This document shows, piece by piece, positions 25,500 to 56,105 of a stretch of DNA of 64,000 bases. A model generated the notes under the pieces. That model did not search any database, had not been told where the DNA came from, and saw only the letters and a list, made by a program, of their open reading frames with translations. How positions within the stretch are numbered: the stretch's first letter is position 1; each line of letters begins with the position of its first letter. Source of the stretch: Streptomyces roseifaciens (GTDB lineage: Bacteria > Actinomycetota > Actinomycetes > Streptomycetales > Streptomycetaceae); the NCBI RefSeq assembly GCF_001445655.1, contig NZ_LNBE01000003.1:848529-912528 (forward strand), given 5' to 3'. The position numbers were made by a program, and so were the translations under genes.

Positions 25500-25665
25500 G
25501 CGGGCGCCGCTCCGCCAAACGCCAGCGACGGCGACAGGGGAGGAAGCCGGTGAGACTCCGGCACGGTCCCGCCACTGTGAGCCCGGCACTCCCGCCGGGC
25601 GAGTCAGGAACTCCCGCCGTCCTCCAACCGCCCGGGGCGCGGACCCCGAGGAAGGCTTGCCGCCG
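25500..25665 (+). ncRNA. Cobalamin (B12) riboswitch upstream of cobN
   Basis: Conserved core elements in order: GGAAGCCGGTGAGACTCCGG (25542-25561), GCCACTGTGA (25571-25580) and a B12-box-like GAGTCAGGAACTC (25601-25613), then GAGGAAGGC near 25648. Its end lies about 60 bp before the cobN GTG. In Streptomyces such elements shut off B12 synthesis genes when adenosylcobalamin is plentiful. Boundaries are approximate. Confidence 0.9.
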
Positions 25666-29460: not shown

Positions 29461-30165
29461 ATGGGTGGGCAGGCGCACGAGGGACGGAAGCGGCCGGCAC
29501 GTGCCTTGGGAGTGACCTTCGCCGAGCTGATCGGGCCGTCACCCTGGGCCGGGCTGCTCGAAGAAGGACACGTGCGATCGCACCGCGCCGGCGAAGTGCT
29601 GCTACGGCAGGGCGACCCCGGCACGCATGCGCTCGCGCTGATCCGCGGGGCCGTCAAGGTGACCCGCGTGGAGCGGGACGGCCGGGTGCGCGTGCTGGCC
29701 TTCCGCGGCACGGGTGACGTGGTGGGCGAGGCGGCGGCCGCGCACAGCGGGGTGGCCCGGCTGGCCACGGTCGAGTCGGTCTCCGCGTGCACGGTCGCCG
29801 TCGTGGAGAAGGACAGGTTCACGAAGTTCGTCGACGGGAACGGCCTGTGGCCCGCCCTGCACGAGCACGCCCAGATCCGGCTGGCGGAGTCCGACAGCGC
29901 CCGGTCCGGCTACGGCGGGTCCTGCCGGCGACTGGCCGGGGCGCTGCTGGCGCTCGTCGCGGCCGTCGGCGAGACGGTGTCCCCCGGCGGCCTGGAACTG
30001 GCCGTCACCCGGGCCGAACTCGCCCAGTACCTCGGCGTCTCACGCAACACCGTCAGCAGCAGGCTGGGCGAGATCGGCGCGAGCATCGTCGCCGGACAGC
30101 GCAAGAGCATCGTCATCCACGACATCGACGGCCTGCGGGCGGTCGCCGCCGATACGGACGACTGA
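29461..30165 (+). CDS. Crp/Fnr-family transcriptional regulator
   Basis: 234 aa. An N-terminal cyclic-nucleotide-binding beta-roll (about residues 30-130: HRAGEVLLRQGD, then FRGTGDVVGEAAAA..GVARLATV) keeps Glu and Arg at the positions that contact ribose and phosphate in cNMP-binding members. The C-terminal winged helix has RAELAQYLGVSRNTVSSRL. There are no Cys residues of an FNR iron-sulfur type in the sensor, so cyclic nucleotide is more likely than oxygen. The ATG has no clear ribosome-binding site but lies 8 nt after TACTGT (29447-29452), so the message may be leaderless. It directly precedes the cyclase-like operon. Confidence 0.85.
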   Translation: MGGQAHEGRKRPARALGVTFAELIGPSPWAGLLEEGHVRSHRAGEVLLRQGDPGTHALALIRGAVKVTRVERDGRVRVLAFRGTGDVVGEAAAAHSGVARLATVESVSACTVAVVEKDRFTKFVDGNGLWPALHEHAQIRLAESDSARSGYGGSCRRLAGALLALVAAVGETVSPGGLELAVTRAELAQYLGVSRNTVSSRLGEIGASIVAGQRKSIVIHDIDGLRAVAADTDD

Positions 30166-30188
30166 CGGCCGGGTGACGCAGGCCACAA

Positions 30189-30215
30189 GCGTTGTGCACT
30201 CGCGGTGCACAACGC
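30189..30215. promoter_or_regulatory. 11-bp perfect dyad upstream of the cyclase-like operon
   Basis: GCGTTGTGCAC (30189-30199), 5-nt spacer TCGCG, and its exact complement (30205-30215). It lies 23 bp after the Crp/Fnr stop and 82 bp before the cyclase-like ATG. TGTG/CACA cores in a dyad resemble Crp-family operators, so binding by the adjacent regulator is plausible. It could also act as a terminator hairpin, but no T-tract follows. Confidence 0.55.
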
Positions 30216-30297
30216 CGCCGGCGGCTCCACGAGCATCTGAGGCACCCGCCCGGCGCATTCCGCTCGCCGGGCAAGCCCTCGGACAGAGGAGTCGCCC

Positions 30298-31167
30298 ATG
30301 CCCAGCACCGGACTTCCCCCCGGCGGCCCGGCCCCGTGGAGCATCAGCCGGGACCTGCCGCCCTACCGCGGGATCCTGGCCGTGGACGCCAAGGACTTCA
30401 CCGGCAGGCCCGCGGTCGAGCACGTCAGGATCACGACCCTCATCCCGCAACTCCTGCAACAGGCCCTCGAGCGCGCCGGCCTGGGACAGCTGTGGCAGGA
30501 CCAGCGGTTCGCCAACAACACCGGCGACGGATTCGTCTTCGGCTTCGACCCCACGGCCCTCCCGCGAGTGATCCACCCGTTCCTGATCGAACTGCAGGAA
30601 CTGCTCACCGACTACAACATCCACGCCACGGCCACCGGCCGCCTCCGTCTGCGCGTCAGCCTCCACGTCGGGCCGCTGCCCGATGCCGAAGCACCGGGCG
30701 ACGGCAACGGCACGCCCCGCAACGACACGCACAGGCTCCTCGACTCCACGCCCGTCAGGGCCATCCTGGCCGCGTCGAGCGAAAGCATCACCCAGGTCGC
30801 CGCGATCCTCTCCCAGCGGGTCTTCGAGGACGCCGTCCTCTCCGGCTACACGCGCCGCCACCCCGACCACTTCATCGAGGTGCCCGCCACGGTCGAGGGC
30901 AAGAACTTCCAGCAACGGGCCTGGCTCTACGTACCCGCCCCCTCGGGCAACCTCTACGACCGGCGGATCCTGGGCGAACAGGAGCCCGAGCCCCAGCCCG
31001 AGGCAGCTCCGGCCGAACCCGGACGGGCACCCGCGCCCGAACCGGACCGGGCACCCGCCGTGACCAACAACTACGGCTTCCTCTCCCACGCCAAGACCGT
31101 GCGCGGCGGCCAGCACCAGCACGTGCACGGACCCGGTGCCGGTGGTCAGGACGGCGCCGGGCGATGA
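30298..31167 (+). CDS. Class III nucleotide-cyclase-like protein with C-terminal amyloid-type motif
   Basis: 289 aa. A cyclase homology domain is recognisable: ILAVDAKDFTG with first metal Asp (D30), ANNTGDGFVFGF with second Asp (D77), strand LRVSLHVGPL, and N142-x3-R146 (NDTHR) matching the transition-state Asn/Arg of class III cyclases. Asn73 stands where adenylate cyclases have the purine-specifying Lys, so the base may not be adenine. Pro/Glu-rich linker ~220-252. The tail (255-275) ends VRGGQHQHVH and matches the N-terminus of the next protein. ATG preceded by AGAGGAG; 4-bp overlap with the NTPase gene. PycC-type pyrimidine cyclases are the closest concept I know; identity is inference. 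Confidence 0.65.
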   Translation: MPSTGLPPGGPAPWSISRDLPPYRGILAVDAKDFTGRPAVEHVRITTLIPQLLQQALERAGLGQLWQDQRFANNTGDGFVFGFDPTALPRVIHPFLIELQELLTDYNIHATATGRLRLRVSLHVGPLPDAEAPGDGNGTPRNDTHRLLDSTPVRAILAASSESITQVAAILSQRVFEDAVLSGYTRRHPDHFIEVPATVEGKNFQQRAWLYVPAPSGNLYDRRILGEQEPEPQPEAAPAEPGRAPAPEPDRAPAVTNNYGFLSHAKTVRGGQHQHVHGPGAGGQDGAGR

Positions 31168-33242
31168 GCAACGAACCGAGCGGGCCGGCACAGCCCGCGC
31201 CGCCCCCGGACTTCGCCCAGATCTTCGGGGATGCGGGCGGACAGCCCGTCATCTGGAACATGGGCACCGTCACCTTCGCGCATACGGTCGAGGGCGGTCA
31301 GCACATGGGCGGCCCCGTCACCGTGCCCGGTGAGACCGTCGAGAGCCGCGAAGGCGACATCGCCGCAGAACAGACCCTCGCGGCCATGAGCGGCTTCGCC
31401 GAACCGGACTGGTTCACCGGGGCCCTCGAACAGGCCGGCAGTCGCGTGGTCTTCCTCGTCGGCGCGCCGGGCAGCGGACGCCGGACCGCCGCGCTGAACC
31501 TGCTGCAGCGGCACACCGGAAGCTTCGCGCTGCGCGCCGTCGACTCCGACGTCGAACTCGCCACGTGGACCGTCGGTGGCACCGGAGCCCGTGGCTATCT
31601 GATCGACGGCCTCCTGGAGACGCGGACCCTCGCCCTCGGGAGCATCGCGCTGGACAACCTGAGGCGGCAACTCGAACGGTCGGACGCCTGCTTGGTCGTC
31701 ATCACCGAACAGACGCCGCAGATCCTCGCCCACCTGAAGGGCGTCCTGCACGTCGATCCGGTCCGGGCGACGCCACCGCCTGCACGAGCGGTCCTGGACG
31801 CCAAGCTGGCCACCGCCTTGCCTGACCCGGCACGACGGCGGACCGTTCTCGCCGAGCTTCCCTCGGGCTTCCTCGACGAGACCTTGCAACGCCGCCCCGG
31901 ACCGGCCCAGGTCGTGGAGATCGTCTCCGGGATCGTCCAAGTGGCGGATGGGACGACCGAGGCTGCGGCCATCGGCCGGCACCTGAGCTTCCACGCCGCC
32001 GACTGTGCTCCCCAGCTGCTGCGCTCAGTCCGTAACAGCCCCGATGACCTCGCCCTCCTTCTCGCCACCTGTGTCTTCGAACACTTCGACCACACCGTGG
32101 TCGAGGAAGAGGCCCGGCGGCTGCTGGAGGTCGCCGCCGGACGCCTCGACGCCACCCCGCCCGAGGCGGACGCCGTCACCTCGGTGAAGAACCCCGGTTT
32201 CGTCTTCCTGCGTTCCAGGAAGGAGCGCCTGGCCGCCATCGAGGCGGACCGCGGCCCCCGGGAAGTACGAGCCGCCTCCACCCACAGCTATGCCGTCGAA
32301 CCCGTGGCCTTCACCCGGCACCTCCAAGGCCGGGCCGTACTCGACCTCGTCTGGCGCGAGCACCGCGACGCCGGTGAGCTGCTCGTGGAATGGCTGCAGC
32401 AGACGCCGTCGGCTCACCGGGCCCGCGCGGACCGCGCCGGCTTCATCCTGGGCAGGCTGGCGCAGTGGAGCTCGGGCGACCGGGCGCTCGCCCCCATCGA
32501 GCAACTGGCCCACTCGAGCAGGCCCGGCGACTGGCGGATGGCCGCCCGGGCCTTCGGCGCCGCCTCGGCCGACCCCGTCCTGGCCACCGCCGTCAAGAAC
32601 CGGCTGCGCGGCTGGTCCCGGGCGGCTTCCGAGTCGCTGCGCTGCACGGCGGCGCTGACGTGCGCCACGGAGTTCGGCCTGGCCCGCCCGGAGGTGGCGC
32701 TGGCCCTGCTGCACACCACGGTGACGGCGCGGGAGGACGGATCCGACGCCGTCGAATCGGCGGTCCGGCGGGCGTTGCTCTCGCTGTTCGCCGAACCCGC
32801 GCTCCGGCCACGGGTGGTCGATGCCCTCGTCCAGTGGTCCCGCCCGGCCGGAGCGGCCAGGCGTACGGCGTGCGCGGCCGTCGCCCAGTTGCTGAAGACG
32901 GCGGCGGCCGTGAGGGAGCCGGCGGAGTGGTGGAGCGCTCACCTGCTCTCCGGGGACGCGCCCCCGGGGACGGAACTGATCCGCTCCGCGCTCATGGAAC
33001 CGACGAGCTTCGACACCGCCCGCGCCGCCCTCCTGGAATGGCAGCGGCGCGCAACCACCGACCCCCGCCGCGCACTGGCCGTGGAACGGCTGGTCGACGG
33101 GCTGGCCCTGCACCTGCGCGGCGGGGTCTTCCGGCTGTTCACCGACCTGGAACGCGCCGCGCCGGCCCCCGGTGCCGAACGCGCCGGCCTGGCCCTCGCG
33201 CAGTGGCGCGGGACGGGCACACCACAGAGAGGCCACGCATGA
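31164..33242 (+). CDS. P-loop NTPase with helical repeats and N-terminal signalling motif (NLR/STAND-like)
   Basis: 692 aa. Residues 29-50 hold a motif (VIWNMG..TFAHTVEGGQH) shared with the tail of the cyclase-like protein. A P-loop follows, GAPGSGRRT (100-108), and a hydrophobic Walker-B-like strand ACLVVITE (175-182). The C-terminal ~450 residues are Ala/Leu/Arg-rich helices resembling HEAT-type repeats (WRMAARAFGAASADPVLATAVKNRL and similar). The plan of short motif, NTPase and superstructure repeat is that of NLR-like sensors. I could not place it in a named STAND clade by eye. ATGA overlaps on both sides indicate coupling with its neighbours. Confidence 0.65.
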   Translation: MSNEPSGPAQPAPPPDFAQIFGDAGGQPVIWNMGTVTFAHTVEGGQHMGGPVTVPGETVESREGDIAAEQTLAAMSGFAEPDWFTGALEQAGSRVVFLVGAPGSGRRTAALNLLQRHTGSFALRAVDSDVELATWTVGGTGARGYLIDGLLETRTLALGSIALDNLRRQLERSDACLVVITEQTPQILAHLKGVLHVDPVRATPPPARAVLDAKLATALPDPARRRTVLAELPSGFLDETLQRRPGPAQVVEIVSGIVQVADGTTEAAAIGRHLSFHAADCAPQLLRSVRNSPDDLALLLATCVFEHFDHTVVEEEARRLLEVAAGRLDATPPEADAVTSVKNPGFVFLRSRKERLAAIEADRGPREVRAASTHSYAVEPVAFTRHLQGRAVLDLVWREHRDAGELLVEWLQQTPSAHRARADRAGFILGRLAQWSSGDRALAPIEQLAHSSRPGDWRMAARAFGAASADPVLATAVKNRLRGWSRAASESLRCTAALTCATEFGLARPEVALALLHTTVTAREDGSDAVESAVRRALLSLFAEPALRPRVVDALVQWSRPAGAARRTACAAVAQLLKTAAAVREPAEWWSAHLLSGDAPPGTELIRSALMEPTSFDTARAALLEWQRRATTDPRRALAVERLVDGLALHLRGGVFRLFTDLERAAPAPGAERAGLALAQWRGTGTPQRGHA

Positions 33243-34093
33243 CCACGACCACCTACCACCCCACCCCCGTCCCGGCCGCCCCGCTGTGGACCCGGGGCCG
33301 GCGCAGCCCCCTCCGGGAGCTCGTCCGCTTCCGGCTGTCGCACATCGACCACATGGCGCTGGTGCTGGTCGAGACCGGCGGGCGGGCCGGTTCCGAGCCC
33401 TCGGAGCGGCTGTCCCTGCTGAAGGCCCTGACGGGTGGGTACGAGGAGGCGTACCTCGTCGACACCGGTCCGCGCACGGGGGTGTGGCAGCTGCCCGTCG
33501 GCGCCGAGCCGGCCATGCTGGAGATCACCTGGTGGGTCGCGGACCCGGCGCGGGCGGTCCTGAGCGGCCCCGGCCCCGGCGATCCCTGGGCCACCGTCAG
33601 CGGGCACCTGGACCGTCTGCTGCAGACGATGGCCGCGCGCGCCCGGGCCACGGGACAGGACCTCACTCCGCACCACGTCGCCCAGTACTTGTCGCGGCCG
33701 CAGCCCCTGGAGGGCACGGGCCTGGCCTGCTGTGCGGAGACCACGGCGCCGGCGTTCGAGCTGCCGGGGGCCGCCGGCGGGGGTGACAGCGCCCCGCCTC
33801 AGCTGTGGTCGCCGCAGCGGCGCGAGGAGTACGAGTTCTACCTCCAGGCGGTGCGCACGGGACCCGACGCGCTCGCCGCCCTGTGGCTGCTGCACCATCC
33901 GAACGAGGTCCGGCACGTCCTGGAATGGGTCACCGATCATCCGAGGACCGCCGAAGCGCCGCCCCCCGAGCGCGACGTGATCTACGAAGTCCTCGACCGG
34001 CTCTCCGCGGAGGAGCGGGAACAACTGGCCAAGGTTGTCGTCGAGCGCATCTACGCCATGACGGCACCGGAAGGACCGGAAGGAGAAGGCTGA
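33239..34093 (+). CDS. Unknown protein of the cyclase-NTPase operon
   Basis: 284 aa, not recognised. An N-terminal ~130-residue region of mixed alpha/beta character (RFRLSHIDHMALVLVETGG; GVWQLPVGAEPAMLEITWWV) is followed by a Pro/Gly-rich linker (~165-185) and an Arg/Glu-rich helical C-terminus (REEYEFYLQAVRTGPDALAALWLL; LSAEEREQLAKVVVERIYA). No signal peptide, membrane segment or nuclease motif is visible. Tight 4-bp and 1-bp overlaps with the flanking genes mark it as part of the same system; its role is unknown. Confidence 0.75.
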   Translation: MTTTTYHPTPVPAAPLWTRGRRSPLRELVRFRLSHIDHMALVLVETGGRAGSEPSERLSLLKALTGGYEEAYLVDTGPRTGVWQLPVGAEPAMLEITWWVADPARAVLSGPGPGDPWATVSGHLDRLLQTMAARARATGQDLTPHHVAQYLSRPQPLEGTGLACCAETTAPAFELPGAAGGGDSAPPQLWSPQRREEYEFYLQAVRTGPDALAALWLLHHPNEVRHVLEWVTDHPRTAEAPPPERDVIYEVLDRLSAEEREQLAKVVVERIYAMTAPEGPEGEG

Positions 34094-34293
34094 TGGCCGG
34101 AGACAGGTACTACCGGCGCGGGCACTGGGTGCGGGTGCCCGCCCCCAGGCGTCGTACGGGTGGCGCATGGATAGGTCTCGCGCTCGCCGCGTTCCTCGGC
34201 TGGGGCCTGCTGAACGGGTGCACCGCGGAAGAGGCGGACACGCCTCACGGTCCCCGGCCCGTGCCCTCGGCGGGCCCGGCGGAGTCCCGGTGA
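34093..34293 (+). CDS. Small single-pass membrane peptide
   Basis: 66 aa. A basic N-terminus (YYRRGHWVRVPAPRRR) and one hydrophobic helix (WIGLALAAFLGWGLLNGC) ending in Cys, then a short polar tail. GLLNGC resembles a lipobox loosely, so it could be a lipoprotein or a simple transmembrane peptide. Start and stop overlap the flanking genes (TGATG and GTGA). By position it may be a membrane partner or inhibitor of the nuclease; this is inference. Confidence 0.65.
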   Translation: MAGDRYYRRGHWVRVPAPRRRTGGAWIGLALAAFLGWGLLNGCTAEEADTPHGPRPVPSAGPAESR

Positions 34294-34964
34294 TACCGCG
34301 GCGGCGGGCCCCGGGCGGGAGGCGGCTCCGGCCGCCCCGTACCCGGGCCGAGACGGCGGCCGCGCTCGTCGCGCTCCTCTTCCTCTCACTGATCGTGCAC
34401 CGCCTGCTCGGGCTCCTCGCCGGGCTCGGCGCGTACGCCTGGCTCCTCGTCCTGGGCGTCCCGCCGGCCGCGGCCTGCTGGTGGCTCGTCGCCGTCCGGG
34501 GGCGGGCACGGCGCCGGGCCGGGCGGGTCCCGGGACTGCTTCGGCTGTCCCTGCAGCACGTGGACGCCCTCTCGCCGGGTCAGTTCGAGCTGGCGGTACG
34601 GGACCTGATGGAGCGCGACGGCATCGCCGCGCGGCACGTCGGCAGCCGGGGCGACCAGGCGGCCGACGTCATCGGCAGGGACCGGAACGGGCGGGTGTTC
34701 GTCGCCCAGTGCAAGCACACCGCGATCGGCGGGCGGGTGGGTTCCCGCGTGATGTACGAGGTGAAGGGGACCGCCGGTCCCGTACACGGAGCCGACGTGG
34801 CCGTGGTGGTGACGAACGGCGGCTTCACCCGCGATGCGCGGGCCTGGGGAGAGCGTCACGGCATCCACTGTGTGGACAGGGACCGGTTGCGCGAATGGGC
34901 CGAAGGCCGTCGCACCCTGGCGGCGCTGCTGGGGGTGCGTGACGTCGGGTCAGGGCACGGGTGA
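34290..34964 (+). CDS. Membrane-anchored Mrr-type restriction endonuclease-like protein
   Basis: 224 aa. Two hydrophobic segments (about 24-45 and 48-70) are followed by a Mrr-type endonuclease domain (LSPGQFELAVRDLMERDG entry helix; Asp126 in GDQAADVIG; Q140-x-K142 in VFVAQCKH), the PD-(D/E)xK active site in its Mrr Q-x-K form. Such membrane-fused Mrr domains are known from several defence loci and cleave DNA. GTG start overlaps the previous stop. As last gene of the operon it is the likely toxic effector. Its 3' end overlaps the convergent YscW-like gene by 15 bp. Confidence 0.82.
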   Translation: MIPRRRAPGGRRLRPPRTRAETAAALVALLFLSLIVHRLLGLLAGLGAYAWLLVLGVPPAAACWWLVAVRGRARRRAGRVPGLLRLSLQHVDALSPGQFELAVRDLMERDGIAARHVGSRGDQAADVIGRDRNGRVFVAQCKHTAIGGRVGSRVMYEVKGTAGPVHGADVAVVVTNGGFTRDARAWGERHGIHCVDRDRLREWAEGRRTLAALLGVRDVGSGHG

Positions 34965-35300
34965 CAGTTCCACGGTCACGGTCGGGGGTGTTGCCGGGTG
35001 GCTTTTCCTGGTGATCCAGTCGCCCGGGGTGATCGTGCCCGAGTCGTCGTGGTCCGCGTGGGCGCGGACGGTGTAGCGGGTGCCCGGGGGTGGTGCGGGG
35101 AAGGTCAGGCGTACGCGGGGGTACGGGGGGTGGTCCAGGCGGATGCGGGGGAGGCGGGCATGGGCCACTGTGCGGGAAGGGGCGTCGGCCGTGCTCGTGT
35201 CCTCCACGGTGACGTGGAGCGTCAGTGCGGTCCGGGGCGCGCCGGCGCCCGGCGCCAAGGTCACTTCCACTTCGATTTCCGCGGGGTCCGTAACGGACAT
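34950..35300 (-). CDS. YscW/YbaY-family (PF09619-like) protein
   Basis: 116 aa beta-rich protein with the family pattern VEDTSTADAPSRTVAHARL and YTVRAHADHDDSGTITPGDWIT. Gram-negative homologues are lipoproteins (YbaY) or type III chaperones; actinobacterial ones have no known role. No signal peptide is visible. ATG 35300 fits GAGGTGAGG upstream; a GTG three codons earlier is the alternative. Confidence 0.7.
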   Translation of the reverse strand: MSVTDPAEIEVEVTLAPGAGAPRTALTLHVTVEDTSTADAPSRTVAHARLPRIRLDHPPYPRVRLTFPAPPPGTRYTVRAHADHDDSGTITPGDWITRKSHPATPPTVTVELSPVP

Positions 35301-35385
35301 ACGCCTCACCTCTTGTCAGACAGCATATCTCTCAGTATTTTCCGGAATTGAGACCTATAAGGTTGACGGAAGTCGGGGTGGAATC

Positions 35386-36283: not shown

Positions 36284-36296
36284 CATTCCAATGATC
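36281..36296. promoter_or_regulatory. Palindrome over the vWA start codon
   Basis: GATCATT-CC-AATGATC, a perfect 7-bp inverted repeat covering the -10 end, the expected transcription start and the first two codons. It is an ideal position for a repressor to block initiation. Confidence 0.6.
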
Positions 36297-37571
36297 ATCA
36301 GAAAACGGCTGGCAGCGGGCGCCTGCGCCCTCCTCGCCGCCCTGGCCGGGGGCATCGCGCCGGCGAACGCCGCCGACGGCCCCCCGAAGGATTCCCCGAA
36401 GGTCGAGCTGGTGCTGGACGTCAGCGGCTCGATGCGCGCCCAGGACGTGGACGGCGGCAGCCGCACCCGCATGGCGGCCGCGAAGCAGGCGTTCAACGAG
36501 GTCATCGACGCGGTGCCGGCGGACGTCCGGCTCGGCATCCGGACCCTCGGCGCCAACTACGCCGGTGACGACAAGGAGCTCGGCTGCCGCGACAGCAAGC
36601 AGCTCTACCGCGTCGGCCCCGTCGACCGCACCGAGGCGAAGACCGCCGTCGCGACGCTGCAGCCCACCGGCTGGACCCCCATCGGCTACGCCCTGCGCGG
36701 CGCCGACCAGGACCTCGGCACCGACGGCGGCACCCGCCGCATCGTCCTCATCACCGACGGCGAGGACTCCTGCGGCCAGCCGGACCCGTGCGACGTGGCC
36801 CGCGAACTGGCGGCCAAGGGCACGCACCTGACGATCGACACCCTCGGCCTGGCCCAGGACGACAAGACCCGTGAGCAGCTCAGCTGCATCGCCGAGGCCA
36901 CCGGCGGCACGTACAGCACCGTCCGCCACACCAAGGAGCTGTCCGGCCGGATCAAGCAGCTCGTGCGCCGGGCCGAGACGCCCGTCGAGACCCCGAAGCC
37001 CGTCCGGGGCGCCGACGCGTGCTCCAAGGCCCCCGAGATCGGCGCGGGCCTGTGGACCGACCGCGAGACGTTCTCCGAGCACCGCTGGTACCGCGTCAAC
37101 GTGAAGCCGGGTCAGGAGCTGCGCACGTCGGTGAGCATCGGCGCGGACCGGGCCGTCGACCGTGACTACGGCGTGCTCGTGCGCGCCGTGAGCGAAGGCG
37201 GCCAGGAGCTCGTCCGCGGCGCGGAGTCCGGGAGCGGGCGCACGGACGTCATCTCGTCCGGCCTCCGCTACCCCTACGGCCAGGCCGGGGACAAGGACAA
37301 GGCCAAGGAGGACGGCAAGGAGCCGCGGACCGTCTGCCTGGAGGTCTCCAGCTCCTTCTCCGCCCCCGCCGGCGTCAAGCGCGACCCGGGCCTGCCCGTC
37401 GAGCTGGCCGTCGACCTCGTGGACGCCCCGGACGACCCCTCCGACCTGGCCGCCTTCGGCCTCGGCCGCGGCTGGGTGCTGCTGGCCGTCCTGGCCCTGA
37501 CCGGGCTGATCGCAGGGCTGGTGTGGGGCTGGGTCTCCCGCTGGCGCGTCACGGTGTGGAGGGCGAACTGA
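36291..37571 (+). CDS. Secreted/membrane von Willebrand factor A domain protein
   Basis: 426 aa. Signal peptide (MIIRKRLAAGACALLAALAGG) then a vWA domain with MIDAS motif D43-V-S-G-S47 and the distal ITDGEDSC; a beta-rich region follows (EHRWYRVNVKPGQEL), and one C-terminal transmembrane helix (~400-420) ends in a short basic tail. The topology is an outward-facing vWA domain anchored in the membrane. These proteins bind protein ligands via metal ions. The adjacent gene (overlap TGATG) encodes a similar exported, anchored protein, so the two probably form a surface complex. Confidence 0.85.
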   Translation: MIIRKRLAAGACALLAALAGGIAPANAADGPPKDSPKVELVLDVSGSMRAQDVDGGSRTRMAAAKQAFNEVIDAVPADVRLGIRTLGANYAGDDKELGCRDSKQLYRVGPVDRTEAKTAVATLQPTGWTPIGYALRGADQDLGTDGGTRRIVLITDGEDSCGQPDPCDVARELAAKGTHLTIDTLGLAQDDKTREQLSCIAEATGGTYSTVRHTKELSGRIKQLVRRAETPVETPKPVRGADACSKAPEIGAGLWTDRETFSEHRWYRVNVKPGQELRTSVSIGADRAVDRDYGVLVRAVSEGGQELVRGAESGSGRTDVISSGLRYPYGQAGDKDKAKEDGKEPRTVCLEVSSSFSAPAGVKRDPGLPVELAVDLVDAPDDPSDLAAFGLGRGWVLLAVLALTGLIAGLVWGWVSRWRVTVWRAN

Positions 37572-39541: not shown

Positions 39542-39961
39542 ATGGTTGATCCGGTGTCACTGACCGCCGTCACGACCGCGGTCACCGCCGCTGCGGGCTC
39601 CGCGGGGACCGAGGTGGGGCGGCAAGCATGGGCGTCCCTCGTGGACTTCGCCCGCCGTGCGCTCGGCAGGAGGGGAGAGCCGGACGGTGGCGGCACGGTG
39701 CCGCTGCCCCTCGACCCGGCAGACGGTGAGCAGGTCAGGTCGCTCGCCGCGTTGCTCTTCGCGCACCTTCACCAGGACCCCGAAGCCGCCGCCGAGTTCG
39801 TGCGCTGGGCCGAGCGCGCGCGGTCGGCCGTGACGGTCGACGCCGGCCGGACCGTCAATACGGTCGGAGGCAACGCCCGCACCGGAACGGTGATCCAGGG
39901 CAGGGACATCACGTGGAACGGGCCCGCCGGGGCGCCCGGAGGGACGGCCCCGGCGGAGTGA
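39542..39961 (+). CDS. Bell-like small effector with C-terminal amyloid signalling motif
   Basis: 139 aa, in two parts. Residues ~3-42 form a hydrophobic then amphipathic helical start (DPVSLTAVTTAVTAAAG; WASLVDFARRALG) and more helices follow to ~98. Residues 105-127 form a Gly/Asn/Gln-rich segment with N-x-V-x-G-N-x-R-x-G, VIQGRDI and W. This matches the plan of bacterial Bell-domain proteins (HELL/MLKL-like membrane-active bundles) carrying a BASS amyloid motif, as described by Dyrka, Saupe and colleagues; assignment is from memory. The partner is probably the NB-ARC protein at 43.6 kb. AAGGAG precedes the ATG. Confidence 0.65.
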   Translation: MVDPVSLTAVTTAVTAAAGSAGTEVGRQAWASLVDFARRALGRRGEPDGGGTVPLPLDPADGEQVRSLAALLFAHLHQDPEAAAEFVRWAERARSAVTVDAGRTVNTVGGNARTGTVIQGRDITWNGPAGAPGGTAPAE

Positions 39962-43374: not shown

Positions 43375-43594
43375 CTGCGCCCCTTCCGCCGGGACGTCCA
43401 ACTCGGAGGATGAGCATGACACAGCGTCAAACTCTGGTGCCAGATTGCGCACGAGTGGCTGTGAATCGATTGTGGTTCCCAGGGGGGCGATCGAAAACAC
43501 ACGGGATGGGTAGTTCTTCGGTCAGGCATTGCCAGATGGATAGGCCATGTGCATGCGTCATATCCGCCCGGCGCAGAGGGGAGCGACGGATCCG

Positions 43595-45997
43595 GTGAGA
43601 GAACGAGACCTCGTCGACGTGTTCATGGGGGCCGGACCGGCGGCGGGCCTGCCGCCCGGCGGCGCCGCCTGGCGGTCCCTGGAGCGCCTGACCGCCGCCG
43701 CCCGGGAACGGGACGCCGCCCTCGCCGCGGCCTGGAGCGCGGCAGGGCTCACCGGCTCGTACGAGAGCCTGCACGCGCTCGCTGCCGCGCTGGTGGGCCA
43801 CACCGGGGACGCCCGCCTGGGCGAGGCCCTGCGGCAGTGGTTCCACGCGCACGCCGGGCAGGGCGCCGCAGCCGGAGCCCTGCACACGAACGTCCTTCAG
43901 GGCGACACCCGGGTCGAGGGGCCGAGCCTCCAGGCGCGTGACGTCCACGGCGGGATCCACCTGCACCACGCCCCGCCGCCCCGGCGGCCCCCTACTCCGC
44001 GTCAACTTCTCCCCGTCCCCGCCCACTTCACCGACCGGACGGACGACCTCCGGACGCTCGACGCGCTGCGCACCGCCCGGCCCGGCTGCGCGCCGCGGCT
44101 CGTCGTCGTGAGCGGCCCCGCAGGCGTCGGCAAGACCGCTCTCGTCTCCCGCTGGCTGCAAGCCGCCGCGCCCGAATTCCCGGACGGGCAGCTCTACGCG
44201 GACCTCCGCGGCCACGCCTCCGCCGGCCCGGCCCGTGCGACCGAGGCGCTGGCGGGCTTCCTGCGCGCCCTCGGCGCGGGCTCCGTGCCGGCCGCGGCGC
44301 AGGAGCAGACGGCGCTGTGGCGATCGCTGACGGCCGACCTGCGGCTGACGGTGATGCTCGACAACGCCTTCTCCGCCGCCCAGGTGCGCGCCCTGCTGCC
44401 CGCCGCCCCGGGCAGTCTCGTGGTCGTCACCAGCAGGTACCGGCTCACCGGGCTCGTCGTCGACGGCGCGGGGTTCCACCGCGTCGGCATGCTCGATCCG
44501 GCGGCCGCGCTGGAGCTGCTCACCCGTGCCGTCGGCGGCGACCGCGTCGAGCGGGACCGCGAGGCCGCACGCCAAGTGGTCTCCCTGTGCGGCCGCTTGC
44601 CGCTCGCCCTGTGCCTCGCCGCCGCCCAGCTGGCCTCCCGGCCGCGGCGCCCGGTCGCGGCGCTGGCCTCCGCGCTGACCCGTGGGCGCGGACCCCTCGA
44701 CGGACTCAGCGTGGAAGGAGAGGCCGCGGTGCGAACGGCCCTGGACGAGTCCTACGACGCCCTGCCCGCGCGGGCCGCCCGGGCCTACCGGGCCATGGCC
44801 CTGCTCCCGGTCCGGCAGTACGACGCGCACCTGGTCGCCGCCGCCTGCGCGGTGGCGCCCGAGGAGGCCGAGGACCTGCTGGACCTGCTGGCCGACGTGA
44901 ACCTGCTGGAGGAGAACGAAGTGGACAGCTACCGCTTCCACGACCTCGTCCGCCTCCACGCCGCCCGCCGGGCGGAGAGCGAAGAGACGCCCCAGCAACG
45001 TGAAATGACGCTCCGTCGGTTCGTGGACGGCTGCCTCGCCGCCGCCACCTCCGCCGAGGAGCTCCTCACACCCAGCCACCGCACCCTGCCGCGCTCCTAC
45101 GCCCACCCGCCCGCCGTTCCGGCCCCCTTCGACAGCGCCGACGGATGCCTCGCCTGGCTGGACGGGCACCGCTACGACCTCATGGCCGCGCTGCGGCTCG
45201 CGGCCGACCGGGGCTGGGACGCGAGCGCCTGGCAGCTCGCGGACGCCATGTGGCCCCTGTTCCTGCGATTACGCCCCTACGACCTGTGGGTGGAGGCCCA
45301 CGAGACGGGGCTCGCGGCGGCACTGCGGGACGGCCACCGCGCGGGCGCGGCCAGGATGCTGACGTCCGGAGGCGGCGGCCTGTGCAACGCCGGCCGTCCC
45401 GACGACGCCGTGCAGTGGTTCACGGACGCCCTCGGCCGGGCTCTGGAGGACGGCGACGAACGGCAGCAGGCCCAGGCCTTGCACGGCCTCGGCAGGGCGC
45501 ACCAGCTGAAGGACGACCCGGACCGCGCCGAAGGCTTCTTCGCCCGCGCCCTCGCCCTGCGCGAGGCCATCGGCTACCGGCGCGGAGCAGCACTCTCGCG
45601 GGTGTGCCTGGGGGAGACGGCCACGGCCCGGGGCCGTGGCCGGCAGGCGGTGGACCACCTGTCCCGGGCCTACGACGACCTGGTGGCCGAGGGCGAGGGC
45701 TACGAGGCCTCCCGCGCCCTCGCCCACCTGGGGCGCGCCACCGCACTCGCCGGGGATCCGGAGGCCGGGGCCCGGCAACTGCACCGGGCCCTGCAGGACT
45801 TCGAGGCATCCGGATCCGTCCACTGGCAGGCGCGCACCATGGAGATGCTCGGCATGGTGGCCGGGGAGCGCGGCGACGCGGCGGACGCCCACCGCTGGTT
45901 CACGCGCTCCCTGGCCCTGTACGCACCCCTCAGCCCCTCCGACGCCGCCCGGCTGAGCGCCCGGCTCGGGGAACTCCCCGGCGCCGGGCCCTCCTAG
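43595..45997 (+). CDS. NB-ARC-TPR (NLR-like) protein with amyloid-type motif and a TTA codon
   Basis: 800 aa. Residues ~99-124 carry N-V-L-Q-G-D-T-R..G, SLQARDVHGG and IHLH, the pattern seen in NLR-associated amyloid motifs and similar to the tail of the 39.5-kb Bell-like protein. NB-ARC follows (SGPAGVGKTAL at ~173; LTVMLDNAFSAAQV; RLPLALCLAAAQL) and a TPR array at the C-terminus. Leucine 559 is coded by TTA (45269-45271), so translation should need the bldA tRNA. Start GTG 43595 follows GAGGGGAG; ATG 43547 is an alternative. Divergent from the SARP gene with 220 bp between. Confidence 0.85.
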   Translation: MRERDLVDVFMGAGPAAGLPPGGAAWRSLERLTAAARERDAALAAAWSAAGLTGSYESLHALAAALVGHTGDARLGEALRQWFHAHAGQGAAAGALHTNVLQGDTRVEGPSLQARDVHGGIHLHHAPPPRRPPTPRQLLPVPAHFTDRTDDLRTLDALRTARPGCAPRLVVVSGPAGVGKTALVSRWLQAAAPEFPDGQLYADLRGHASAGPARATEALAGFLRALGAGSVPAAAQEQTALWRSLTADLRLTVMLDNAFSAAQVRALLPAAPGSLVVVTSRYRLTGLVVDGAGFHRVGMLDPAAALELLTRAVGGDRVERDREAARQVVSLCGRLPLALCLAAAQLASRPRRPVAALASALTRGRGPLDGLSVEGEAAVRTALDESYDALPARAARAYRAMALLPVRQYDAHLVAAACAVAPEEAEDLLDLLADVNLLEENEVDSYRFHDLVRLHAARRAESEETPQQREMTLRRFVDGCLAAATSAEELLTPSHRTLPRSYAHPPAVPAPFDSADGCLAWLDGHRYDLMAALRLAADRGWDASAWQLADAMWPLFLRLRPYDLWVEAHETGLAAALRDGHRAGAARMLTSGGGGLCNAGRPDDAVQWFTDALGRALEDGDERQQAQALHGLGRAHQLKDDPDRAEGFFARALALREAIGYRRGAALSRVCLGETATARGRGRQAVDHLSRAYDDLVAEGEGYEASRALAHLGRATALAGDPEAGARQLHRALQDFEASGSVHWQARTMEMLGMVAGERGDAADAHRWFTRSLALYAPLSPSDAARLSARLGELPGAGPS

Positions 45998-55776: not shown

Positions 55777-55864
55777 CGGCGGCCGGAGCAGGAGGACGCC
55801 GCCGAGCGCCACCGTCGATTGCGAGAGGTTTGCAACTGCAGAACCTGTGCACAACCGCTAGGGT

Positions 55865-56065
55865 GGCCCGGCCGTGGTGTTCGGGAAGACCGGTGACGGG
55901 CCTTCGTGGTCCCAGTCCGGAGCGGCCCTCGCCACTGTGATCGGGGAGTGACCGTCCCGTTCCGCGCGCTCCCAGGGCGCGCGGAGCCACTGGCCGCAGC
56001 CGGCTGCCGGGAAGGCGGGGACGGGCGCGAACGGACCCGTAAGCCAGGAGACCGGCCACGGCATC
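55865..56065 (+). ncRNA. Cobalamin (B12) riboswitch upstream of the NiCoT transporter
   Basis: Core elements: GGGAAGACCGGTGACGGG (from 55883), GCCACTGTGA (55931-55940), GGGGAGTGACC, GGGAAGGCGGGG near 56010, and B12-box AGCCAGGAGACCGGCC (56042-56057). It ends about 45 bp before the transporter ATG. A TAGGGT at 55859-55864 may be the promoter -10. Low B12 would permit cobalt uptake. Confidence 0.92.
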
Positions 56066-56105
56066 TCGCAAATGGTCCACGAGGTGCTGGAGCGTTCAAC
56101 CCAAG

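Follow-up and report, generated by a model that had tools for sequence, protein, structure and literature searches.

How might a nucleotide cyclase, a Crp-type regulator, a P-loop-like protein, and a membrane-anchored nuclease encoded by adjoining genes work together, and which of them belong together at all? The question is raised by positions 29461-34964 of a 64,000-nt stretch of Streptomyces roseifaciens DNA (contig NZ_LNBE01000003.1, positions 848,529 to 912,528; here called the window), from a genome of 8.64 Mb. The closest named relatives of the operon proteins are from Streptomyces species. A preliminary description reported six co-directional genes, the last five with overlaps of 1-4 bp, and these positions have been verified: all six genes are on the + strand, the overlaps are 4, 4, 1, and 4 bp, and 132 bp separate the crp and cyclase genes. 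Its account of the genes and their key residues also stood, apart from an "NTPase" that lacks the Walker A Lys and a "membrane peptide" made uncertain by a hydropathy under the cut-off.

It seems on balance probable that the operon is one version of a signalling system conserved among actinomycetes, where a sensor-like scaffold acts as the switch for a class III cyclase, with abortive defence as the likeliest use. Its sequences suggest a hitherto unnoticed route to turning on cyclic-nucleotide alarms, possibly against viruses.

A conserved four-gene core

Related loci were taken from two samples: 40 around matches to the scaffold gene, and 80 named loci found independently by cyclase alignment (the best 80 of 183 relatives). 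Dropping duplicates by cyclase sequence left 101 distinct cyclase loci. A Crp gene lies upstream of the cyclase in 99 of these, the scaffold gene downstream in 94, and the fourth gene in 83; all four are present in 81. The set collected by cyclase, in whose selection the scaffold played no part and which comprises the best 80 of the 183, gives a similar picture (Crp 79 of 80, scaffold 75, fourth gene 65, all four 64). By gene order, the recurrence of this arrangement in 81 of 101 distinct loci is more than chance, and the conserved core, as read from these alignments, is Crp, class III cyclase, scaffold, and SPFH-like protein, in that order. The commonest junctions are 4-bp overlaps (cyclase-scaffold in 68 of the 101 loci, scaffold-fourth gene in 64), counts that are biased upwards by a start-codon choice that gave a bonus to short overlaps. 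The co-occurrence that the preliminary description had proposed to check is thus borne out for four genes. Of the five-gene set it envisaged, the cyclase, scaffold, and fourth gene are conserved, while the Mrr nuclease is clade-specific; the latter was rejected as a core component, being adjacent in just 4 of the 83 systems with a fourth gene.

Scaffold homologues were found in 47 of 392 sampled genomes of the same genus. A class-wide sample gave cyclase matches in 69 of 394 genomes, 16 belonging to this genus and 53 to others, and in 21 of 137 genera; in a phylum-wide sample the count was 7 of 396, all but one from this genus. Forty loci (L181-L220) were fetched around class-wide matches. A cyclase was called in 34, all except L183, L191, L198, L209, L211, and L219; among the 34, 23 have Crp directly upstream and 23 the scaffold downstream, with no scaffold called in the other 11. 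At L206-L208, where the cyclase matches are weak, the gene set is absent. The fourth-gene profile matches seven of the 34 (L200, L204, L205, L210, L213, L215, and L218), and the fourth-slot genes of seven loci scanned with Pfam have no match. Conservation of the putative SPFH-like partner outside the genus is therefore partly shown.

Some versions have recurrent surroundings. The divergent (class D) systems L067, L068, L069, and L070, and also L200, L210, L213, and L218, have flanking genes in common. In L070 an rpoC-like gene lies on one side and rpsL/rpsG/fusA/tuf-like genes on the other (we take them to encode RpoC, RpsL, RpsG, EF-G, and EF-Tu), surroundings in which a variable signalling system is not usually expected. 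The system of the window's own group adjoins a cobN-like gene, again a fixed chromosomal position. In nine other loci (L062, L104, L120, L130, L135, L137, L144, L147, and L058) there is a recurring downstream set encoding proteins of about 240 aa, 90 aa (helix-turn-helix-like, with a PF12728 match under the cut-off), and 340-380 aa. The last, which carries NPNVMYELGLRHA in L144 and L147, presumably resembles deoxyribosyltransferase-type domains; Pfam gave no support. In L144, L147, and L058 these genes follow a Crp-cyclase pair without scaffold.

The cyclase and its putative reader

The cyclase gene (30298-31167, +) encodes a domain which by alignment and structure prediction is of the class III fold with intact catalytic residues, so that activity is predicted, followed by a Pro/Ala-rich linker and a C-terminal motif. 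The preliminary description had noted the two metal-binding Asp and the N-x3-R pair of class III cyclases and proposed a structural check. Both observations hold beyond the window: in an alignment of 22 diverse cyclases, Asp30 and Asp77 are kept in all 22, N142 in 21, and R146 in 22, and the structure check returned the class III fold with these residues. The position of the base-selecting Lys is variable. (The roles of such residues in class III cyclases, and of those discussed below for Crp, Walker A, and Mrr proteins, are general knowledge.) No Pfam, PADLOC (E up to 1), or NCBIfam model matched the window cyclase, and PADLOC matched none of three diverse relatives.

The upstream gene (29461-30165, +; the gene caller favours a start at 29512 over 29461) encodes a Crp/Fnr-type regulator with a cyclic-nucleotide-binding domain (PF00027, E 3.3e-18) and a Crp helix-turn-helix (PF13545, E 1.1e-11). 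The Glu/Arg ligand pair seen earlier in the window protein is present in its relatives as well: across 99 aligned sequences the phosphate-binding cassette has Gly in 99, Glu in 90 (Asp in the other 9), Arg in 98, and Ala in 99. By a Pfam scan this is the sole cyclic-nucleotide-binding domain in the operon, and it matches the PADLOC model for PycTIR (E 6.1e-11). On the C-helix, the equivalent of Ser128 is Asp in 71 of the 99 and Thr in 25. An attempt to read base specificity from residues was abandoned: neither the Lys position of the cyclase nor the C-helix positions of Crp are constant, and therefore no product is proposed.

The gap between crp and the cyclase gene contains a perfect palindrome, GTTGTGCAC-N5-GTGCACAAC (30191-30213), as a candidate Crp operator. 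Even with up to 3 mismatches allowed the window contains no further match, where the mean chance expectation is 0.02, and the palindrome's 21-bp core, TTGTGCAC-N5-GTGCACAA, has no second exact copy genome-wide, with three other sites at two mismatches. Palindromes of the GTGCAC type occur in all seven loci of the window's group (the window included), and of the GTGAC(N4)GTCAC type in L034, L036, L037, L042, L062, L084, L089, and L135. Palindromes with arms of at least 8 nt are found in 21 of 99 crp-cyclase gaps, against 4.05 expected by shuffling; many of these gaps have none with arms of at least 6.

The scaffold and the fourth protein

The third gene (31164-33242, +), described earlier as an NLR-like NTPase, encodes a protein with an N-terminal motif, a P-loop-shaped segment (GAPGSGRRT), and a HEAT-like helical part. 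A standard NLR NTPase is made unlikely by the Walker A position, at which none of 93 homologues has Lys (Arg in 66, Ala in 24, Thr in 2, Gly in 1; a 94th aligned sequence has a gap); the distant-family scaffold of L187 does have a Lys in a P-loop-like string. Among 21 members, nSTAND3 matches are sub-threshold in 9 and HEAT (PF02985) matches occur in 2 (best E 9.4e-5); neither NB-ARC nor NACHT is among the families listed at E up to 0.1. The C-terminal half of the scaffold profile matches designed alphaRep proteins (E 0.0028). From its sequence we call it a degenerate STAND-like P-loop protein, or scaffold for short. As the P-loop is degenerate, NTP-driven assembly is doubtful. The earlier proposal, in which a cyclic nucleotide prompts assembly of the NTPase, fares poorly on this account, and the paired motifs described below point the other way, from scaffold to cyclase.

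The fourth protein (33239-34093, +) had been left as an unknown. Its predicted fold is SPFH/Band-7-like, although PF01145 matches just 2 of 21 members by sequence, and weakly (best E 0.0047); on the strength of the model it is a divergent SPFH/Band-7-like protein.

Matched motifs on cyclase and scaffold

A similar Gly/Asn-rich motif is found at the C-terminus of the cyclase and the N-terminus of the scaffold, matching within loci and differing widely between lineages. In the window, the cyclase ends with the Pro/Ala-rich linker and VTNNYGFLSHAKTVRGGQHQHVHG (31060-31131, +), and the scaffold starts with VIWNMGTVTFAHTVEGGQHMGGPV (31248-31319, +); the pairing statistics below are the basis for both assignments. 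Elsewhere both motifs are of other types: GNINTGTVHGGQ-like in L034-L051, GQGNAVIGNVTGG-like in L052-L064, and FGGSLVAGDQHGVSGGQVTGDV-like, on cyclase and scaffold alike, in L065, L067, and L070. Outside the genus there are very different pairs, such as TMNFSGASGTFVGVNQNSTNHGKQNY with TMDFSSASGMFSGINQNSPNHGTQNY in L187 and VTISGDGAQSAFGNTV with VTITGDGAQSAFGNTV in L203. Several cyclases of L034-L051 have long regular repeats such as GDYVGGNKAGTVHGNQGDTVHGDK.

Compared with shuffled scaffold termini, the cyclase tail and scaffold head are similar at p<0.01 in 78 of the 90 loci and at p<0.05 in 86 of them (median z 6.4), while a control using a segment of the cyclase core in place of the tail gives p<0.01 in 1 of 90. 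Four of the 94 pairs (L035, L049, L149, and L150) were dropped for a scaffold N-terminus or cyclase tail that is too short; the figure of 78 of 90 supersedes one of 64 of 92, obtained with a poorer N-terminal cut of the scaffold. The median motif score falls from 71 for pairs within a locus to 44 for pairs drawn from different loci. In L181-L220, 18 of 23 pairs have p<0.01, rising to 16 of 17 where the genes are at most 40 bp apart. For pairs from other families the count is 12 of 16, and the four misses are scaffolds whose start was called 118-524 bp downstream.

The motif might have been a generic feature of these neighbourhoods, an idea discarded after a comparison with 2352 terminal segments of neighbouring proteins, in which only system proteins match: z of at least 5 to the cyclase tail is found solely in second scaffolds and in motif proteins of 55-109 aa. 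These small proteins are encoded near another scaffold gene in L039, L041, L043, L106, L108, L110, L115, and L120. As for co-variation beyond shared ancestry, the partial Mantel r is 0.52 for whole termini of all 90 pairs; a control region of the scaffold gives 0.34. A stronger value (r 0.73, from 84 of the 90 pairs) was set aside: it came from segments chosen by self-pair alignment, which inflates r. Co-variation is weaker evidence than the pairing; the case does not rest on it, and the corrected value makes the bolder version of the mechanism given below slightly less likely.

The paired motifs place the scaffold beside the cyclase and suggest, at the level of sequence, an order from scaffold to cyclase. 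Their terminal position, pairing rule, and diversity of motif families are as in bacterial and fungal amyloid signalling motifs (PMC7889193, PMC8086366, PMC9815663). Matching of this kind is the hallmark of homotypic, possibly amyloid, signalling, and the motif is probably an adhesive of the beta-arch/amyloid type.

Output genes

The gene after the core varies between systems. The commonest recognised one encodes PycTM: among the 83 systems that have a fourth gene, a profile built on that cluster places it no more than 2.5 kb downstream in 43; one member was identified by PF18967 (E 8.3e-15) and PADLOC (E 2e-14). The link to Pycsar drawn in the preliminary description is therefore stronger than it claimed. 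An Mrr gene lies within 7 kb in 6 of the 83, and is adjacent in four: the window, L031, L032, and L071. Thirty-four have neither; in 17 of these a second scaffold gene follows downstream, and the other 17 lack one. In L212 a DUF4407 membrane protein (PF14362, E 9.5e-55) accompanies PycTM, as does a protein of similar appearance in L214.

No PycTM was found in the window's genome. Its core is followed by a gene for a small peptide (34093-34293, +), with an N-terminal YYRRGHWVR and a moderately hydrophobic stretch that falls below the hydropathy cut-off, and then by one for a membrane-anchored Mrr-type nuclease (34290-34964, +, GTG start), a clade-specific effector candidate. The Mrr site had been placed behind membrane helices, which agrees with a PF04471 (Mrr_cat) match (E 2.5e-19; 69.9 bits against a cut-off of 21) preceded by two hydrophobic stretches (residues 25-43 and about 42-70); the nuclease has no nucleotide-binding Pfam match of its own. 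Its standing as a full member of the set is not sustained, and with adjacency in 4 of 83 it is better seen as an add-on of one clade. The peptide has a homologue in L032, and YYRRGHWVR also begins the Mrr protein of L031, which supports the view that peptide and Mrr may act as one functional unit.

Comparison with known systems

Several known systems have properties in common with this one. Pycsar, the subject of Tal 2021, shares the class III cyclase fold with its catalytic residues and, in those 43 relatives, the PF18967 PycTM effector just downstream. The differences are that PADLOC PycC models do not match the window system's cyclase; that the operon adds a Crp regulator, a scaffold with a paired motif, and an SPFH-like protein; and that the window version has Mrr in the place of PycTM, with no adjacent cyclic-nucleotide-gated PycTM or PycTIR effector.

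A second comparison is with bacterial NLR amyloid signalosomes, for which Dyrka et al. 2020 reportedly described Bell-NLR pairs and the amyloid signalling motifs termed BASS. Here too a short similar motif is carried by an effector-side C-terminus and a receptor-side N-terminus encoded by adjacent genes, the BASS-type feature; both cases have many motif families, and both are from filamentous actinomycetes. The effector in the present system has, however, a cyclase fold, not a Bell domain, its receptor P-loop is degenerate, and its amyloid nature is putative. By analogy, the system may work as a Pycsar system to which a gate has been added, or as an amyloid NLR signalosome with a cyclase effector; by the features just listed, it falls outside both as they are defined.

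Mrr-family type IV restriction nucleases share the PF04471 domain, found above cut-off, but the Mrr protein here is membrane-anchored and stands at the end of a cyclase operon. Finally, Kaur et al. 2020 (PMC7159879) describe cyclic-nucleotide cyclases, Band-7 proteins, CRP-like factors, homotypic adaptors, and inactive STAND domains in VMAP/iSTAND/EAD systems, so all of these part types occur there. Those systems have MoxR-vWA, GTPase, or EACC1 cores, while here the core consists of Crp, cyclase, scaffold, and SPFH-like protein, and a short motif takes the place of a folded EAD as adaptor. A conserved MoxR-vWA core was rejected for the present loci: the four families recurring across 81 of them are Crp, cyclase, scaffold, and SPFH-like, in neighbourhoods that were not all scanned. 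No description of the gene set was listed in searches of an open-access library (most subscription papers and preprints lie outside it), in keeping with the preliminary view that no system with the full set had been described.

A possible mechanism and its alternatives

A cue acting on the scaffold, or on the SPFH-like protein, would expose the scaffold's N-terminal motif, and homotypic stacking with the C-terminal motif of the cyclase would cluster cyclase subunits into active dimers, with the SPFH-like protein keeping the complex at the membrane. The cyclic nucleotide would bind Crp, which would control the operon at the palindrome, and in relatives it would also open PycTM membrane effectors. 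In the window strain, the small peptide and membrane Mrr would take the place of PycTM, the output presumably being DNA damage near the membrane, by induction or recruitment. The likeliest use would be abortive defence in filamentous actinomycetes; since PycTM and Mrr occur as output genes, antiphage use is, by analogy, plausible. A bolder version, offered tentatively and short of an even chance, is a "cyclic-nucleotide inflammasome." In it, invader sensing would spread from the scaffold as a self-templating beta-fold into the cyclase tail, so that amyloid assembly starts messenger synthesis; each lineage would have its own motifs, with Crp as autoregulator, swappable membrane effectors (PycTM, membrane Mrr, DUF4407, and others), and the 55-109 aa motif proteins (eight loci, L039 to L120) as seeds or caps.

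Several observations weigh against this proposal, or parts of it, and bear on the alternatives. The same machinery might serve development or stress signalling, not antiviral defence, with an internal cue and with Crp adjusting transcription. We think this rather unlikely, with variable neighbours (PycTM, Mrr, DUF4407), patchy occurrence (scaffold homologues in 47 of 392 genomes), and motifs that are very different between lineages all speaking against it; yet its most constant partner is a transcription factor (99 of 101 loci), 34 of 83 systems have no recognised effector, and some versions have fixed chromosomal positions (next to the cobN-like gene for the window's group, flanked by rpoC-like and rpsL-like genes for class D), which argue for caution about antiphage use. 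The amyloid part of the proposal could be replaced by an ordinary folded docking element, such as a short beta-solenoid or beta-roll, by which the cyclase is regulated through stable recruitment. The GDYVGGNKAGTVHGNQGDTVHGDK-type repeats of L034-L051 do resemble beta-solenoid turns, and an AlphaFold2 model of the window cyclase, with a predicted local distance difference test score below 50 in the tail, neither shows nor excludes a fold. Against this, the terminal position, pairing rule, and diversity of the motifs fit amyloid signalling motifs (PMC7889193, PMC8086366, PMC9815663), and docking of this kind is somewhat less likely than not.

Two further alternatives concern single components. 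The small peptide and Mrr might be neighbours unrelated to the core: Mrr is seldom adjacent (those 4 systems of 83), and L033 and L075, which are closely related, possess the core but no adjacent Mrr. The overlaps of 1 and 4 bp in the window, the use of the same slot by PycTM in relatives, and the presence of the peptide's N-terminal stretch at the start of the L031 Mrr protein make this improbable. Least probable of all is that the cyclase-like protein is non-catalytic and only a nucleotide-binding switch, as its variable base-selecting position and the lack of Pfam, PADLOC, and NCBIfam matches for the window protein (and of PADLOC matches for three relatives) might suggest; of 22 diverse members, 21-22 retain the two metal Asp as well as Asn and Arg, and a Crp protein with an intact ligand cassette stays adjacent.

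To our knowledge, cyclic-nucleotide alarms and amyloid-type NLR signalosomes have so far been separate in bacteria. The proposed system would join these two immune principles, the first represented by Pycsar and CBASS, the second by homotypic NLR assemblies, whose triggers and outcomes in bacteria are called unknown in a review (PMC7889193). With a cyclase as receiver, there would be a measurable small-molecule output, and the many natural motif pairs would make templating specificity directly testable. PycTM effectors would gain a possible upstream sensor, and an SPFH-like protein would join a cyclase signalling operon.

Other features of the window

A vWA-like protein (36291-37571; LVLDVSGSM, by eye) has a partner gene, and the two are found again next to the systems of the window's group and of L065, different as those systems are; the vWA-like gene was rejected as part of the core. 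Two further proteins have stretches that look like amyloid-type signalling motifs: a small one (39542-39961, +) ends with TGTVIQGRDITWNG, and an NB-ARC/TPR-looking one (43547-45997, +) has an N-terminal LQGDTRVEGPSLQARDVHGGIHLH. They were considered as a second motif pair and dismissed, their similarity not being significant (p 0.38).

On the opposite strand, a gene for a YscW-like protein (34950-35309, -; PF09619 E 2.3e-4, just under the cut-off) overlaps the end of the Mrr gene. Cobalamin riboswitches (Rfam RF00174) are found in two places, 25540-25613 and 55858-56074. The first stands 5′ of the large cobN-like gene that adjoins the operon upstream, which we take to be cobN.

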